Of a stretch of 64,000 nt of DNA, positions 14,464 to 18,522 are shown one piece after another. Both the position numbers and the translations under genes were made by a program. The stretch's first letter is position 1. Every line of letters begins with the position of its first letter. The DNA lies in NCBI RefSeq assembly GCF_001294205.1, contig NZ_LAQT01000009.1, positions 186,001 through 250,000 on the forward strand. The letters run 5' to 3'. The notes under the pieces were generated by a model. The model did no database searches. It was not told where the DNA came from and saw only the letters and a list, made by a program, of their open reading frames with translations. Source of the stretch: Amantichitinum ursilacus. Its GTDB lineage: Bacteria > Pseudomonadota > Gammaproteobacteria > Burkholderiales > Chitinibacteraceae.

Positions 14464-15537
14464 TTAATTAAAGTCGGGTTTTGGCGTGCTGGGTCCGTCA
14501 GGCGGTAGTTGCGGCAGTTCGCGTGCGGCGCGCGGCACCTCGCCATTCAGGCTGGTCAGAAAGGCCTCGATAGTGTCGAGGTCAGTGGCGGTGAGCGTGG
14601 TGCCTAACTGCGTTTCGCCCATGATGCGGATGGCGTCGCGCAGCGACCACACGCTGCCATCATGAAAATACGGCGCGGTCTGCGCCACATTGCGTAATCC
14701 TGGCACTTTAAACAGATCGGTATCGGCTGCCTTTTTGCTGACTTCGGCCACGCCATGGTCACGCCCCTTGCTGCCGGTATATTTCCAGTACGGCCCCTTG
14801 GCCAGACCAAACTTCATAAACTGCGTGCCACCCAAAGCCACACCGCTATGGCAGGCGATACAACCGGTTTCCATAAAGCGCCGCAGACCGGTTTGCTCCG
14901 TATCGGTGAGCGCTGCCGGATTGCTGGTCAGATATTGATCAAAGCGCGACGGGGTAACCAGCGTGCGCTCAAAGCTGGCGATGGCGCTGGCGATATTGTC
15001 ATACGACAGCGGGCTTTTGCTGTCCGGAAAGGCCTTGGCAAACAGCGGCGGATAACCGGGAATGCTGTTCAGCCGGCGCACTGCGGTGGCCGGGTCCGCC
15101 AACGCCATTTCCACCGGATTGGTGATCGGGCCCTTGGCCTGGTCTTCCAGCGTCACCGCCCGGCCATCCCAGAACTGTTTGCTGTGGTAGGTCGCGTTCA
15201 GCACCGTGGGCGAATTGCGCGTGCCTTTGGTCCAGCGATGGCCCAGCGACACCGGCGTGTTGTCGACGCCCGCCCGCGCCAGGTTGTGGCAGCTACTGCA
15301 ACTTTGCGTGCCCGACCTGGACAGCCGCGCATCAAAAAACAGCATCTTGCCCAAGGCAATGCGGCCCGTCGGATCGGGATTGGGGGTCGCGATGATGGGC
15401 TTGAACAGGGTTTGCGCCTGCTTGCGCAAGGCGGGGTCGGGCGTGGCTGGCGCGCCGGTAGCGCCTGCCTGATGCAGAACAGCGCCTGCCAGCAAACAGG
15501 CCGCCAACGTGCGGAAAGTGGATCGATCAAACAACAT
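14464..15537 (-). CDS. Di-heme cytochrome c peroxidase (CcpA/MauG family)
   Basis: The 357-residue protein has an N-terminal signal peptide (about residues 1-28) and two CXXCH heme motifs: CSSCH near residue 80 and CIACH near residue 225. Conserved blocks include GKMLFFDARLSRSGTQ, NSPTVLNATYHSKQFWDGRA and VPGLRNVAQTAPYFHDGSVWSL. Bacterial enzymes of this family reduce H2O2 in the periplasm with electrons from small cytochromes or cupredoxins. Length is normal. The C-terminal tail is Pro-rich. Some family members have other roles (MauG-type oxidation), so the exact substrate stays open. Confidence 0.88.
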   Translation of the reverse strand: MLFDRSTFRTLAACLLAGAVLHQAGATGAPATPDPALRKQAQTLFKPIIATPNPDPTGRIALGKMLFFDARLSRSGTQSCSSCHNLARAGVDNTPVSLGHRWTKGTRNSPTVLNATYHSKQFWDGRAVTLEDQAKGPITNPVEMALADPATAVRRLNSIPGYPPLFAKAFPDSKSPLSYDNIASAIASFERTLVTPSRFDQYLTSNPAALTDTEQTGLRRFMETGCIACHSGVALGGTQFMKFGLAKGPYWKYTGSKGRDHGVAEVSKKAADTDLFKVPGLRNVAQTAPYFHDGSVWSLRDAIRIMGETQLGTTLTATDLDTIEAFLTSLNGEVPRAARELPQLPPDGPSTPKPDFN

Positions 15538-15621
15538 GGATAACCTCGGGGACGGGGCGAAAATCCGCTATTACAGTCCGCCCCGCGGCGGTGTCATTTG
15601 ATCGATATCAGTCGTTACTGT

Positions 15622-16839
15622 TTATTTGTATGCAGCAAGCATATCGGTGCGATGTTTTTGCGCAGACGGCGCGTAGAACTGCGCCAGCGTCTTGCCCAGC
15701 AACGCCAGACCGGTCTCGATTTCGGCAGCCGTGGTATTGAGCGCGGGCATGATGCGCAGACAATGTGGGCGCGGATTGTTAATCAGCAAGCCGTTGTCGC
15801 GCGCAGCCCGCATGACCGCTTCAGCGCGCTCATCGCCCAGTTCGATGGCCCACAGCAAGCCTGCGCCGCGTACTTCGCCCAGCCCGAAGCGGGCGCTGAG
15901 TTCGATCAGCCCGCTTTGCAATTGCGCGCCACGCGCCACCACATTGGCCAGAAACGCCGGTTGCGCCACATGCTGCATCACCGCCAGCCCCACCGCAGCG
16001 GTGAGCGGGTTGCCGCAAAAGGTTCCGCCCTGATCGCCGTGCTCGAATACGCTGCAGGCGGCTTTGGCCAGCAGCGCCGAAATCGGTACGCCCGCGCCCA
16101 GGCCTTTGCCCAGGGTCATGATATCGGGCTCGATGCCGCTGGCTTGATAGGCAAACAGCGGGCCGGTACGGCCGCAGCCGGTTTGCACTTCATCAAAAAT
16201 CAGCAGCAGTTGATGTTCGTCGCACAAGGCGCGCAGTGCCTGCAGAAATGCGCGGCTGGCCGCATTAACGCCGCCTTCGCCCTGGATGGGTTCCAGCATG
16301 ATGCCCACCGTGTGCGGGCCGATCAGCCGCCGGACGCTTTCGATATCGTTGAGTGTGGCTTTGGGAAAGCCCGGCACTTGCGGCGGAAAATACACATCCC
16401 AGCCCGGCTTGCCCGAGGCCGACATCGCGGCGATGGTGCGGCCATGAAACGCGCTGGTAAAGGTGATGATTTCAAATGCGCCGTCCTTATGCAGGCGGCC
16501 CCATTTGCGCGCCAGCTTGATCGCGCCTTCGTTGGCTTCCGCGCCGGTGTTGGCCAGAAACACCTGGTCCATGCAGCTGTGGTCTACCAGCCATTGCGCC
16601 AGTTGCGTGGCGGGCGTGTTGTTGAAGGCGGGGCTGGGGGTAATCAGCGTGCAGGCTTGCTGATACAACGTATCGGCCACCAGCTTGGGTGCGTGGCCCA
16701 GGCTGTTGACGGCCCAGCCTTGTAACCAGTCCAGCCAGGCTCGTCCCGCCGCGTCATACAGCCACGCGCCTTCGCCGCGCTCGAATTGCAGCTGCGGACG
16801 CGGGGTGATGGACATCAGCGGATTGGACTGGCTGGTCAT
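15622..16839 (-). CDS. argD: Acetylornithine/succinyldiaminopimelate aminotransferase family
   Basis: This class-III PLP aminotransferase has 405 residues. Visible motifs are NTGAEANEGAIKLARKW (phosphate binding), FHGRTIAAMSASGKP, EPIQGEGGVNAA, the cofactor Asp in IFDEVQTGCGRTG, and the Schiff-base Lys in TLGKGLGAGVPISA. The set fits ArgD, which makes N-acetylornithine in arginine synthesis and can act in lysine synthesis; a catabolic relative (AstC type) cannot be excluded. AAGGAG lies about 10 bases before the ATG at 16839. The 5' region contains a strong terminator hairpin and a short Arg-rich reading frame, suggesting attenuation control. It has no arg neighbours. Confidence 0.85.
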   Translation of the reverse strand: MTSQSNPLMSITPRPQLQFERGEGAWLYDAAGRAWLDWLQGWAVNSLGHAPKLVADTLYQQACTLITPSPAFNNTPATQLAQWLVDHSCMDQVFLANTGAEANEGAIKLARKWGRLHKDGAFEIITFTSAFHGRTIAAMSASGKPGWDVYFPPQVPGFPKATLNDIESVRRLIGPHTVGIMLEPIQGEGGVNAASRAFLQALRALCDEHQLLLIFDEVQTGCGRTGPLFAYQASGIEPDIMTLGKGLGAGVPISALLAKAACSVFEHGDQGGTFCGNPLTAAVGLAVMQHVAQPAFLANVVARGAQLQSGLIELSARFGLGEVRGAGLLWAIELGDERAEAVMRAARDNGLLINNPRPHCLRIMPALNTTAAEIETGLALLGKTLAQFYAPSAQKHRTDMLAAYK

Positions 16840-16881
16840 GCTGGTTTACTCCTTGGGGTTGGATGCCGGAATCGATCGGCG

Positions 16882-16917
16882 AAAAAAAACGGGCCGCGAA
16901 GTGTTTCGCGGCCCGTT
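16882..16917 (-). terminator. Strong intrinsic terminator just upstream of argD (candidate attenuator)
   Basis: On the minus strand a 13-bp stem (arms 16905-16917 and 16888-16900, loop of 4) is followed directly by eight T residues. It ends only about 43 bases before the argD start codon. No convincing promoter fits in that gap, so transcripts for argD probably have to read through it. That makes it a candidate attenuator as well as a stop for the upstream gst operon. Confidence 0.8.
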
Positions 16918-16950
16918 GGTCTGGTGTGTGTTTTCTGGAGCAGGGTTGCG

Positions 16951-17064
16951 TCAGGGCAACCCGTCCTTGTCACACGCCCATGGCAACGCGCCACGGCCCG
17001 CCGCCGCGGCTGCGGCTCGGCGGGCCGCGTTGCGTCGGCCTTGAGCGTGTGTGTAGGAATTCAT
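16951..17064 (-). CDS. Candidate Arg-rich leader peptide upstream of argD
   Basis: A 37-codon frame begins MNSYTHAQGRRNAARR and ends GALPWACDKDGLP. Two Arg-Arg pairs (codons 10-11 and 15-16) and Arg24 stand out. Codons 15-16 fall inside the first arm of a hairpin (17018-17027 with 16994-17003). The second arm of that hairpin can pair, with one mismatch in nine, with the 5' arm of the terminator at 16905-16917. This is the arrangement of ribosome-controlled attenuation by arginine. Against it, the predicted start site is nearly at the ATG, so translation would be leaderless, and the Ala-rich centre could be a by-product of the GC-rich hairpin. Confidence 0.4.
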   Translation of the reverse strand: MNSYTHAQGRRNAARRAAAAAAGRGALPWACDKDGLP

Positions 17065-17101
17065 GCTTTTTAGAGTGCCGGACAATTTGCCGTTATGTCA
17101 A
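17065..17101 (-). promoter_or_regulatory. Candidate promoter of the argD leader transcript
   Basis: On the minus strand a consensus -35 TTGACA (17096-17101) is followed 18 bases later by a weak -10 CACTCT (17072-17077). The start site would fall near 17065, at or just before the leader ATG. The -35 is perfect; the -10 is poor. Confidence 0.45.
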
Positions 17102-17132
17102 CGGCGTTTTCCAGGGCCGGCTTTGCGCGCCC

Positions 17133-17393
17133 TTATTCGAGCAACAGACCTGCTTTGGCCAGCCGTTGCGCCAGCGCATCCATGCCGCCTTTGTATTCCC
17201 AATACATCAGCCGACCCTGGCCACCGGAAACCAGCAGATAACGTTCGCTGATGGACTGAATACGCTCGATGGCGACCAGTTTGGTGACATAGACGTCCTC
17301 GTTGACTTCTTCGACGATCTCGACATTTTGCGCGTCAAATCCGTGCACGATACGTGCAGTTCGAACCTTGAGCCGGATAAATCGAGCGCTCAT
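17133..17393 (-). CDS. Hypothetical 86-residue protein
   Basis: This small acidic-basic protein has no motif I recognise. It has no signal peptide or membrane segment and looks like a compact beta-rich fold (VRTARIVHGFDAQNVEIVEEV), ending in a short Leu-rich helix (LAQRLAKAGLLLE). Its start overlaps the stop of the GST gene by 4 bp, so it is translated from the same transcript, which argues that it is real. Codon use matches its neighbours. A role linked to the GST is possible but not shown. Confidence 0.7.
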   Translation of the reverse strand: MSARFIRLKVRTARIVHGFDAQNVEIVEEVNEDVYVTKLVAIERIQSISERYLLVSGGQGRLMYWEYKGGMDALAQRLAKAGLLLE

Positions 17394-18088
17394 ACGCGGG
17401 CTCCGCCGTGTTGGTGGATCAGCTCATCCTGTCCAGGATTACGCCATGTGCTGGCCTCGGCAGCGGCTTGCCATTCGCGCATGGCGGGCAGCGCCAACAT
17501 CGTGTCGCGGTAGGCCGCGGCATCAGCTGGCAGCGCCACGTTGTAGCTATAAAAGCGCCAGACTACCGGTGCGAACATGGCGTCGGCGATGCTGAAAGCG
17601 CCAAACAGAAACGGGCCATCGCCGCTGGCAAAGTATGTGCGAGCGTCACGCCAGGCCAGACAGATGCGGTCCACTTCTTTCTGCACGGCAGCAGGCAGCG
17701 CGGTGCCGCGCGCCCGCAAGCGGATATTCATTGGCAGTTGGTTGCGTACCTGGCCAAAGCCACTGTGCATTTCGGCGGCAATGCTGCGGGCCCGGGCGCG
17801 GGCGGTGCGCTCGGCGGGCCACAGTTGCGGATGACGTTCAGCCAGATATTCGCAGATTGCCAGGCTATCAAACACTTGCAGATCGCCATCATGCAGACAG
17901 GGCACCAGCCCGTTGGGCGAATACGCCAGATGGCGCTCGTTTACGCCCGTGCCGCCCAGTGGTACTTCGACTTCCGTAAATGCAATCCCCAGCTGTCGCA
18001 GCGCCAACCATGGCCGCAATGACCACGAAGAATAATTCTTGTCGCCCAGATACAACGTGTACTGCGCTTGTCCGTCCGTAGAGCCCAT
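17390..18088 (-). CDS. Glutathione S-transferase family protein
   Basis: The 232-residue protein has a thioredoxin-like N-terminal half opening with YLGDKNYSSWSLRPWLALRQLG, where Ser residues supply the likely glutathione-activating hydroxyl. The segment GLVPCLHDGDLQVFDSLAICEYLAE contains the cis-Pro and the gamma-glutamyl-binding Asp-Ser. The helical C-terminal half follows from about residue 90. GSTs conjugate or isomerise substrates with glutathione in the cytosol. Start 18088 is chosen because AAGGA lies 7 bases upstream; the longer frame to 18322 reads through the upstream gene. It is the middle gene of a three-gene minus-strand operon. Confidence 0.85.
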   Translation of the reverse strand: MGSTDGQAQYTLYLGDKNYSSWSLRPWLALRQLGIAFTEVEVPLGGTGVNERHLAYSPNGLVPCLHDGDLQVFDSLAICEYLAERHPQLWPAERTARARARSIAAEMHSGFGQVRNQLPMNIRLRARGTALPAAVQKEVDRICLAWRDARTYFASGDGPFLFGAFSIADAMFAPVVWRFYSYNVALPADAAAYRDTMLALPAMREWQAAAEASTWRNPGQDELIHQHGGARV

Positions 18089-18414
18089 CAAGCTTTCCTT
18101 GTGATTGAGATATGCACGTGCTGCGCGCGCCGTTCGCGCTGGCGGCGGATAAGGCCCCACAACGCGCCCACCAGCCGTGCGGCCTGCCGATACAGCCAGC
18201 CGGGCTGCGCACGCAGGCGCAAACTGCCGTGGCCTTCCACCAGCACATTGCCCGGCCCGACGATGGCGCTTTCCTGTGCTTTCAGAATAATGTCGCGCGC
18301 CTGGCCATTTACAGTAATCCACATCTCGCCTGTTTCACAAACCATGCTCCAACGCTCGTGCGCATCCAGCCGCATCAGCTCGCTTTTTAGTATGAGTCGG
18401 ACGTCTTGTGTCAT
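18088..18414 (-). CDS. DUF2917 domain protein
   Basis: The 108-residue protein carries the DUF2917 pattern: HERWSMVCETGEMWITVNGQARDIIL, then an AIVGPGNVLVEGHGSLRLR segment, a cupin-like beta roll. A basic C-terminal tail follows. The family has no assigned function and is often found beside a divergent LysR-type regulator, as here. Start 18414 is preferred because of GGAG upstream; the frame to 18513 has no signal. Its stop overlaps the GST start (TGATG), so this gene leads the operon of DUF2917, GST and the 86-residue protein. Confidence 0.75.
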   Translation of the reverse strand: MTQDVRLILKSELMRLDAHERWSMVCETGEMWITVNGQARDIILKAQESAIVGPGNVLVEGHGSLRLRAQPGWLYRQAARLVGALWGLIRRQRERRAQHVHISITRKA

Positions 18415-18445
18415 CTCGCTTGCTCCTGTCTCCGTGATGGCTTGT

Positions 18446-18484
18446 AATATATCGGCACACAAACTTAAGAAAAATCGATATATT
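18446..18484. promoter_or_regulatory. Dyad in the DUF2917/LysR divergent promoter region
   Basis: A 9-bp inverted repeat, AATATATCG (18446-18454) and CGATATATT (18476-18484), lies in the 108-bp AT-rich space between the divergent genes. It probably holds overlapping promoters and a LysR site. Binding is inferred from position only. Confidence 0.45.
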
Positions 18485-18522
18485 TTTACGCTTTTCGTGA
18501 ATAAAACTAACAAGAGGCGCTG

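Follow-up and report, generated by a model that had tools for sequence, protein, structure and literature searches.

The leader in front of argD in the window, that is, in the whole 64,000-nt stretch of DNA that was analysed, is very probably a ribosome-mediated attenuator of transcription through which argD responds to charged arginine tRNA. It is most likely an arginine class of the ribosome-mediated attenuators, and this reading is drawn from its parts, their order and conservation, their codon bias and their base-pairing potential, all of which are found in the DNA sequences compared here. On the minus strand TTGACA, a weak −10 box, an ATG open reading frame (ORF), an intrinsic terminator and argD follow each other in this order, and the features are as follows:

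17096–17101, minus strand: −35 box TTGACA of the leader promoter, read from the sequence, six of six consensus positions.
17072–17077, minus strand: −10 box CACTCT, two of six consensus positions, 18-nt spacer, 7 nt before the leader ATG.
16951–17064, minus strand: leader ORF of 37 codons plus stop, starting with ATG, peptide MNSYTHAQGRRNAARRAAAAAAGRGALPWACDKDGLP; frame and Arg cluster conserved in relatives.
17017–17037, minus strand: regulatory Arg codons 10–11 (CGA CGC, 17037–17032) and 15–16 (CGC CGA, 17022–17017), read from the sequence.
17018–17027, minus strand: segment 1, the protector arm, perfect complement of 16994–17003 and paired in the full-leader fold.
16985–16995, minus strand: predicted antiterminator segment, pairing with the terminator 5′ arm (16907–16917) in the stalled-ribosome fold, with a corresponding segment in relatives.
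16888–16917, minus strand: intrinsic terminator with a 13-bp stem and a 4-nt loop, eight Ts at 16889–16882.
15622–16839, minus strand: argD, acetylornithine transaminase, NF002985/PRK03715 equivalog at 577 bits versus a cut-off of 568.

The argD start codon ATG at 16839 has AAGGAG in front of it and lies ∼43 nt downstream of the T-run. The leader peptide has Arg at codons 10, 11, 15, 16 and 24, and the fold of the 281-nt upstream region is 8.7 SD below that of its own shuffles (z −8.7). An earlier note on this DNA had described TTGACA, a 37-codon frame with two Arg-Arg pairs, a 13-bp terminator with eight Ts and a gap of ∼43 bases to argD, and all of these are present in the sequence, as is the perfect 10-bp complementarity that it gave between segment 1 and a segment 2 at 16994–17003. 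It had also held that no promoter fits between the terminator and argD. A consensus scan finds no sigma-70-type promoter in 15500–18500 and thus none in this gap, but because the same scan also misses the leader's own promoter with its weak −10 box, its negative result is nearly uninformative there. Directly 3′ of argD lies a gene for a MauG-like di-haem cytochrome c peroxidase (window 14464–15537, minus strand), which was not found as an argD neighbour in the other loci looked at.

The same unit was then found to be a regular companion of this type of argD in relatives. Among 43 same-family genomes, 13 (window included) encode it, called at E 1e-100, and in each of the 13 a promoter, an Arg-rich ORF and a terminator precede the gene in this order. 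Eighty further loci came from named records: 3 repeat same-family genomes, 54 (L047–L100, at 37–45% identity and mostly from Planctomycetes) were left out, and the remaining 23 (L023–L046 without L032, at 58–68% identity) were read and all carry the leader unit. These 23 include Ideonella, Pelomonas, Thiomonas, Limnohabitans, Polaromonas and Dechloromonas, and many are metagenome-assembled. In 300 genomes of the same order, 40 places outside the family score above the NF002985 cut-off; with one of them left out (an interrupted second copy in G238), the leader unit is present in 18 of 39 loci and absent within 420 nt in 21, these counts being among the matches listed. Seven loci from other orders of the class comprise one with the leader unit (L189), one with a looser version (L188) and five with none within 700 nt. 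Hence 54 leaders were analysed (13 same-family, 23 named and 18 same-order), which were selected for having a terminator. No leader was found at any of 11 lower-scoring argD-like loci, the paralogue of the window genome included, and nine of these had no terminator-like site of any kind. At L129 there was no terminator over 700 nt upstream, and L118, with a weak 5-bp terminator-like site and a GTG ORF holding RR, was scored as being without the unit. The earlier note had looked to related genomes for conservation of the frame and of its Arg codons, and this holds, in the form of an Arg cluster, in the 13 same-family genomes and 41 further loci. The distance from the T-run to the start of the argD match is 28–112 nt in the 54 loci. 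Because the other neighbours of leader and argD, looked at by eye, differ among 18 loci, the conserved unit seems to be the leader plus argD.

Several other loci are recorded here in their own right. The looser leader of L188 (MNNLKPMALRMRFMLRLRGVNTVLCVLGKG), from another order, looks leaderless and has RMR and RLR, a TTGACA promoter and a terminator, and it is placed about 215–390 nt before argD, at some distance from the gene. L031 is a leader–argD unit in a metagenome-assembled ‘Methylomonas’, by name outside the main order, where transfer or misbinning is possible. The second ArgD-like enzyme of the window genome (L181, 3448–4758; G000:C4), of the AstC or bifunctional type, is encoded between the genes of PEP synthase and typA and has no leader. 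An RNA model of the leader, R1, matched in 152 of 300 genomes at E 0.01, a figure which was rejected as a prevalence, many of the listed matches covering the terminator end alone.

The Arg cluster is far more frequent than composition predicts: of 57 terminator-bearing upstream regions, 54 contain an ORF that starts with ATG, spans 14 codons or more and carries RR or RAR between residues 5 and 25, versus 5.9 expected from dinucleotide shuffles; the ORFs in this comparison were not picked by content, and the loci are related, hence the trials are not independent. RR is found in 49 of the 54 chosen leaders and RAR alone in the remaining five. Beyond what the earlier note had described, the codons of the cluster are biased to CGA. 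In 48 loci the 180 codons are CGA (86), CGC (60), CGT (31), CGG (2) and AGA (1), so that CGA makes up 48% of them, versus 3.2% of the 1135 Arg codons in the argD genes of the same loci, and CGA, CGC and CGT together account for 177/180 versus 853/1135. In Escherichia coli these three codons have one inosine-bearing tRNA in common. In some loci CGA also lies within a possible hairpin arm (CGAGC/GCTCG), and structure may be an added contributor to the bias. The third-position substitution bias is weak except in one group. Changes in Arg codons are nonsynonymous in nearly the same proportion as changes in other codons (0.61 versus 0.66); this pattern would be compatible with selection acting on codons and helices and not on the peptide, and by itself lends no support. 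The peptide of the window leader has no NCBIfam or Pfam match at E 0.001, and thus no match to DUF2618.

Transcription of the leader is predicted to start at the A of its ATG or within a base or two of it, which would make the ORF leaderless. The prediction follows from the −10 box: in 48 of 54 loci its end lies 6–8 nt upstream of the leader ATG. The predicted start adds to what the earlier note had proposed. The −35 box is kept in all 12 same-family relatives (TTGACA in ten and TTGACG in two), and their −10 boxes, for example CACGAT, CAGGAT, TACTAT and TATATT, are at equal distance from the ATG. The leaders have a mean promoter score of 8.2 of 12; the mean is 5.4 at 299 further ATGs of this DNA, and there the best boxes are scattered across all distances. 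At −1, just before the leader ATG, 52 of the 54 loci have a pyrimidine (45 C and 7 T) and the other two have A. A strict −10 match at 6–8 nt is seen in just 36 of 66 scanned leader copies, some loci being counted more than once.

When 161 sequences (1.64 Mb, both strands) were scanned for terminators, 66 of 151 strong terminators stood behind known leaders, some loci again being counted more than once, and 13 other strong terminators followed an RR/RAR ORF, four of which also had a strict −10 match at 6–8 nt. The units at L166, L168 and L170 are among these four and lie upstream of EamA-like genes. Units of that kind, with a leaderless-looking upstream ORF (uORF) and a terminator in front of EamA-like transporter genes, were seen in other same-order genomes at L159, L160, L162–L168, L170 and L171 (match at about locus position 1500). 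Their terminators are mostly of the AAAGGCC type and their peptides are such as MNSLPLIHLFRVRPVACLRKAWAMACRGRESQR, some with RR; Pfam EamA was confirmed downstream in three (L159, L162 and L170). A similar uORF and terminator at L161 (G117; match at about locus position 1500) is upstream of a transglutaminase-like gene (Pfam PF01841).

For the switch itself, the earlier note had named segment 2 as the antiterminator, pairing at 8 of 9 positions with the terminator 5′ arm. The best pairing of this segment is 7 of 9 ungapped, or 7 of 8 in a shorter stretch; it was dropped and replaced by 16985–16995, ∼9 nt further downstream. Segment 1 was likewise rejected as antiterminator: the strongest single duplex with the arm in the window is largely formed by it, but it would be covered by a ribosome at codons 10–16. 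In our model of stalling the ribosome is taken to cover 14 nt, and the RNA transcribed up to the 3′ arm of the terminator is taken to fold at equilibrium. In the window leader, a ribosome stalled at codon 10, 11 or 15 lets 16985–16995 form ten pairs with 16907–16917, and one at codon 16 lets it form nine; the helix is absent with the ribosome at codon 24 or at the stop codon. Over the 54 loci, mean sequestration of the terminator 5′ arm is 0.72 for a stall in the Arg cluster, 0.48 without a ribosome and 0.32 with a ribosome at the stop codon. The most effective stall within the Arg cluster is more than 0.1 above the stop-codon state in 51 loci and more than 0.1 above the no-ribosome state in 40. 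With the ribosome at the first Arg of the cluster, sequestration is 0.76 versus 0.58 in shuffled leaders; 53 of 54 loci are above their shuffle mean, and the fraction of shuffles that match or exceed the real leader has a median of 0.10. Thus the proposal that stalling at Arg frees an antiterminator agrees with the folding, with its segment corrected to 16985–16995. In the fold models a stall ahead of the Arg cluster likewise leaves the antiterminator free in most loci; therefore folding alone is insufficient, and Arg as the trigger rests on the codons.

Tested singly, the antiterminator duplex is better than shuffles at p < 0.05 in just 19 of 54 loci, and a leader's own terminator arm is a better pairing partner than foreign arms in 9 of 15 groups (p 0.064), most clearly in f22, f22b, f3, Ox and ChitC. 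Of the antiterminator cells in the family 87% pair, and at most 50% do so when the segment is slid, and covariation of the antiterminator within the family is not above that of shuffles. The earlier note had looked for compensatory changes in both hairpins: they occur in the terminator stem, where double compensatory changes are seen among relatives, but the antiterminator is conserved and not covarying within the family. The protector (1:2) hairpin over the Arg codons is clear in the window and shows few covarying pairs across relatives, and an RNAalifold consensus of a 31-sequence alignment retained the terminator alone.

From this arrangement we infer stalling, read-through and a response to arginine, together with the exact start site. 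Transcription would start at the leader ATG or no more than two bases away, and a ribosome would load on the bare 5′ AUG. With ample Arg-tRNA, the ribosome would pass the Arg cluster and reach the stop codon, where the antiterminator segment would be covered or re-paired in the leader hairpin, so that the terminator could form and transcription would end before argD. With scarce Arg-tRNA, the ribosome would stall in the Arg cluster (codons 10–16 in the window; mostly CGA, CGC and CGT) and hold segment 1, and the freed antiterminator segment would pair with the terminator 5′ arm, allowing argD to be transcribed.

SpeFL and the fungal arginine attenuator peptide are examples of nascent-peptide arrest, and a similar arrest, in which the ribosome would be stalled by the leader peptide acting together with arginine or some other small molecule, and the stall would set the terminator, is an improbable explanation of the argD leader. 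Inside one locus cluster the peptides are indeed strongly alike (ARAARARRS then PCAARE), but little beyond the Arg cluster is conserved across clades, where peptides of 16–39 residues have different flanks, and the CGA bias suits tRNA supply and not peptide chemistry. Moreover, the arginine sensor of Salmonella orf34 is described as two Arg codons, rare or frequent (PMC6386406). We consider it very unlikely that the leader RNA, once terminated, serves chiefly as a small RNA acting in trans, or that the terminator merely ends another transcript, with argD having a start of its own. The position of the unit close to argD in all 54 loci while other neighbours vary in 18, and the leader's possession of its own promoter, argue against both versions, which moreover leave the Arg codons unexplained, although Sinorhizobium meliloti rnTrpL, an RNA that starts with the trpL ATG, is described as acting on other mRNAs (PMC7298713).

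It is extremely unlikely that the region is an arginine-binding riboswitch or a protein-binding attenuator with an ORF overlapping it by chance. The high degree of structure in the region would agree with such an element; however, the consensus fold keeps nothing besides the terminator, no Rfam family reaches its gathering score in the window (the best match in 16780–17180 has E 0.41, far below gathering scores), and the Arg cluster and the start position are conserved while much else drifts. Attenuation by a translating ribosome is therefore preferred to these explanations.

Bacterial arginine synthesis has mostly been described as controlled by the repressor ArgR, and sensing at the RNA level is known through T-boxes. 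No match to ArgR (TIGR01529) was found at E 1e-10 in the 300 same-order genomes, and 8 of 14 control genomes match. ArgR is described in Neisseria, and therefore a divergent repressor could escape this search. According to a regulon survey, ArgR is highly conserved in many gammaproteobacterial groups and absent in other classes (PMC5343134). A tentative and rather doubtful extension is that bacteria without detected ArgR would control arginine synthesis by a leaderless attenuator that reads only the CGA/CGC/CGT isoacceptor of tRNA-Arg and is tuned by slow CGA, and that the leaderless uORF–terminator units before EamA-type exporters may share the same or a parallel translation-sensing network. 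If the attenuator reading is true, it would show how bacteria without detected ArgR sense arginine, the classical set of attenuators would gain an amino acid, and the leaders would make it possible to test, in natural sequences, the theory that sensitivity to tRNA charging governs the choice of regulatory codons; the leaderless start, if true, would be a simple model of transcription–translation coupling.

A 2004 survey of proteobacterial attenuators reportedly does not list arginine, and the main text of a terminator survey contains neither ‘arginine’ nor ‘argD’ (PMC2965389). Among the matches listed, the open-access literature describes no arginine attenuator, whether in front of argD or in betaproteobacteria, and no arginine member of the ribosome-mediated attenuators.

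Ribosome-mediated attenuators of amino-acid operons are known for trp, his, leu, ilv, thr and phe. T-boxes work without an ORF, by direct binding of tRNA. With the attenuators of amino-acid operons the argD leader shares a short ORF with cognate codons, a terminator, a competing structure and a biosynthetic gene downstream (PMC1183508). Unlike them, its cognate amino acid is arginine, its ORF is predicted to be leaderless, its codons are strongly biased to CGA, and it serves the single gene argD. With Arg T-boxes it shares control of arginine genes at the RNA level (PMC1262725). The nearest system is orf34 (DUF2618) in the Salmonella speF leader, where consecutive Arg codons 12–13 of a short ORF are described as sensing arginine; it works by Rho-dependent termination, masking of the ribosome-binding site and RNase G decay, and it controls a polyamine gene (PMC6386406), whereas the argD leader, whose peptide is without a Pfam match, has an intrinsic terminator and precedes an arginine-synthesis gene. 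The cysS uORF motif uORFC-8-2 also has two tandem cognate codons, usually at positions 14–15 of the uORF, for which attenuation has been proposed, but these are for cysteine, before a tRNA-synthetase gene and in Rhodobacterales (PMC8632094). The trpL attenuator of S. meliloti, the transcript of which begins at the ATG of the leader ORF (PMC7298713), resembles the predicted argD leader in its start position, and it responds to tryptophan in front of another gene.
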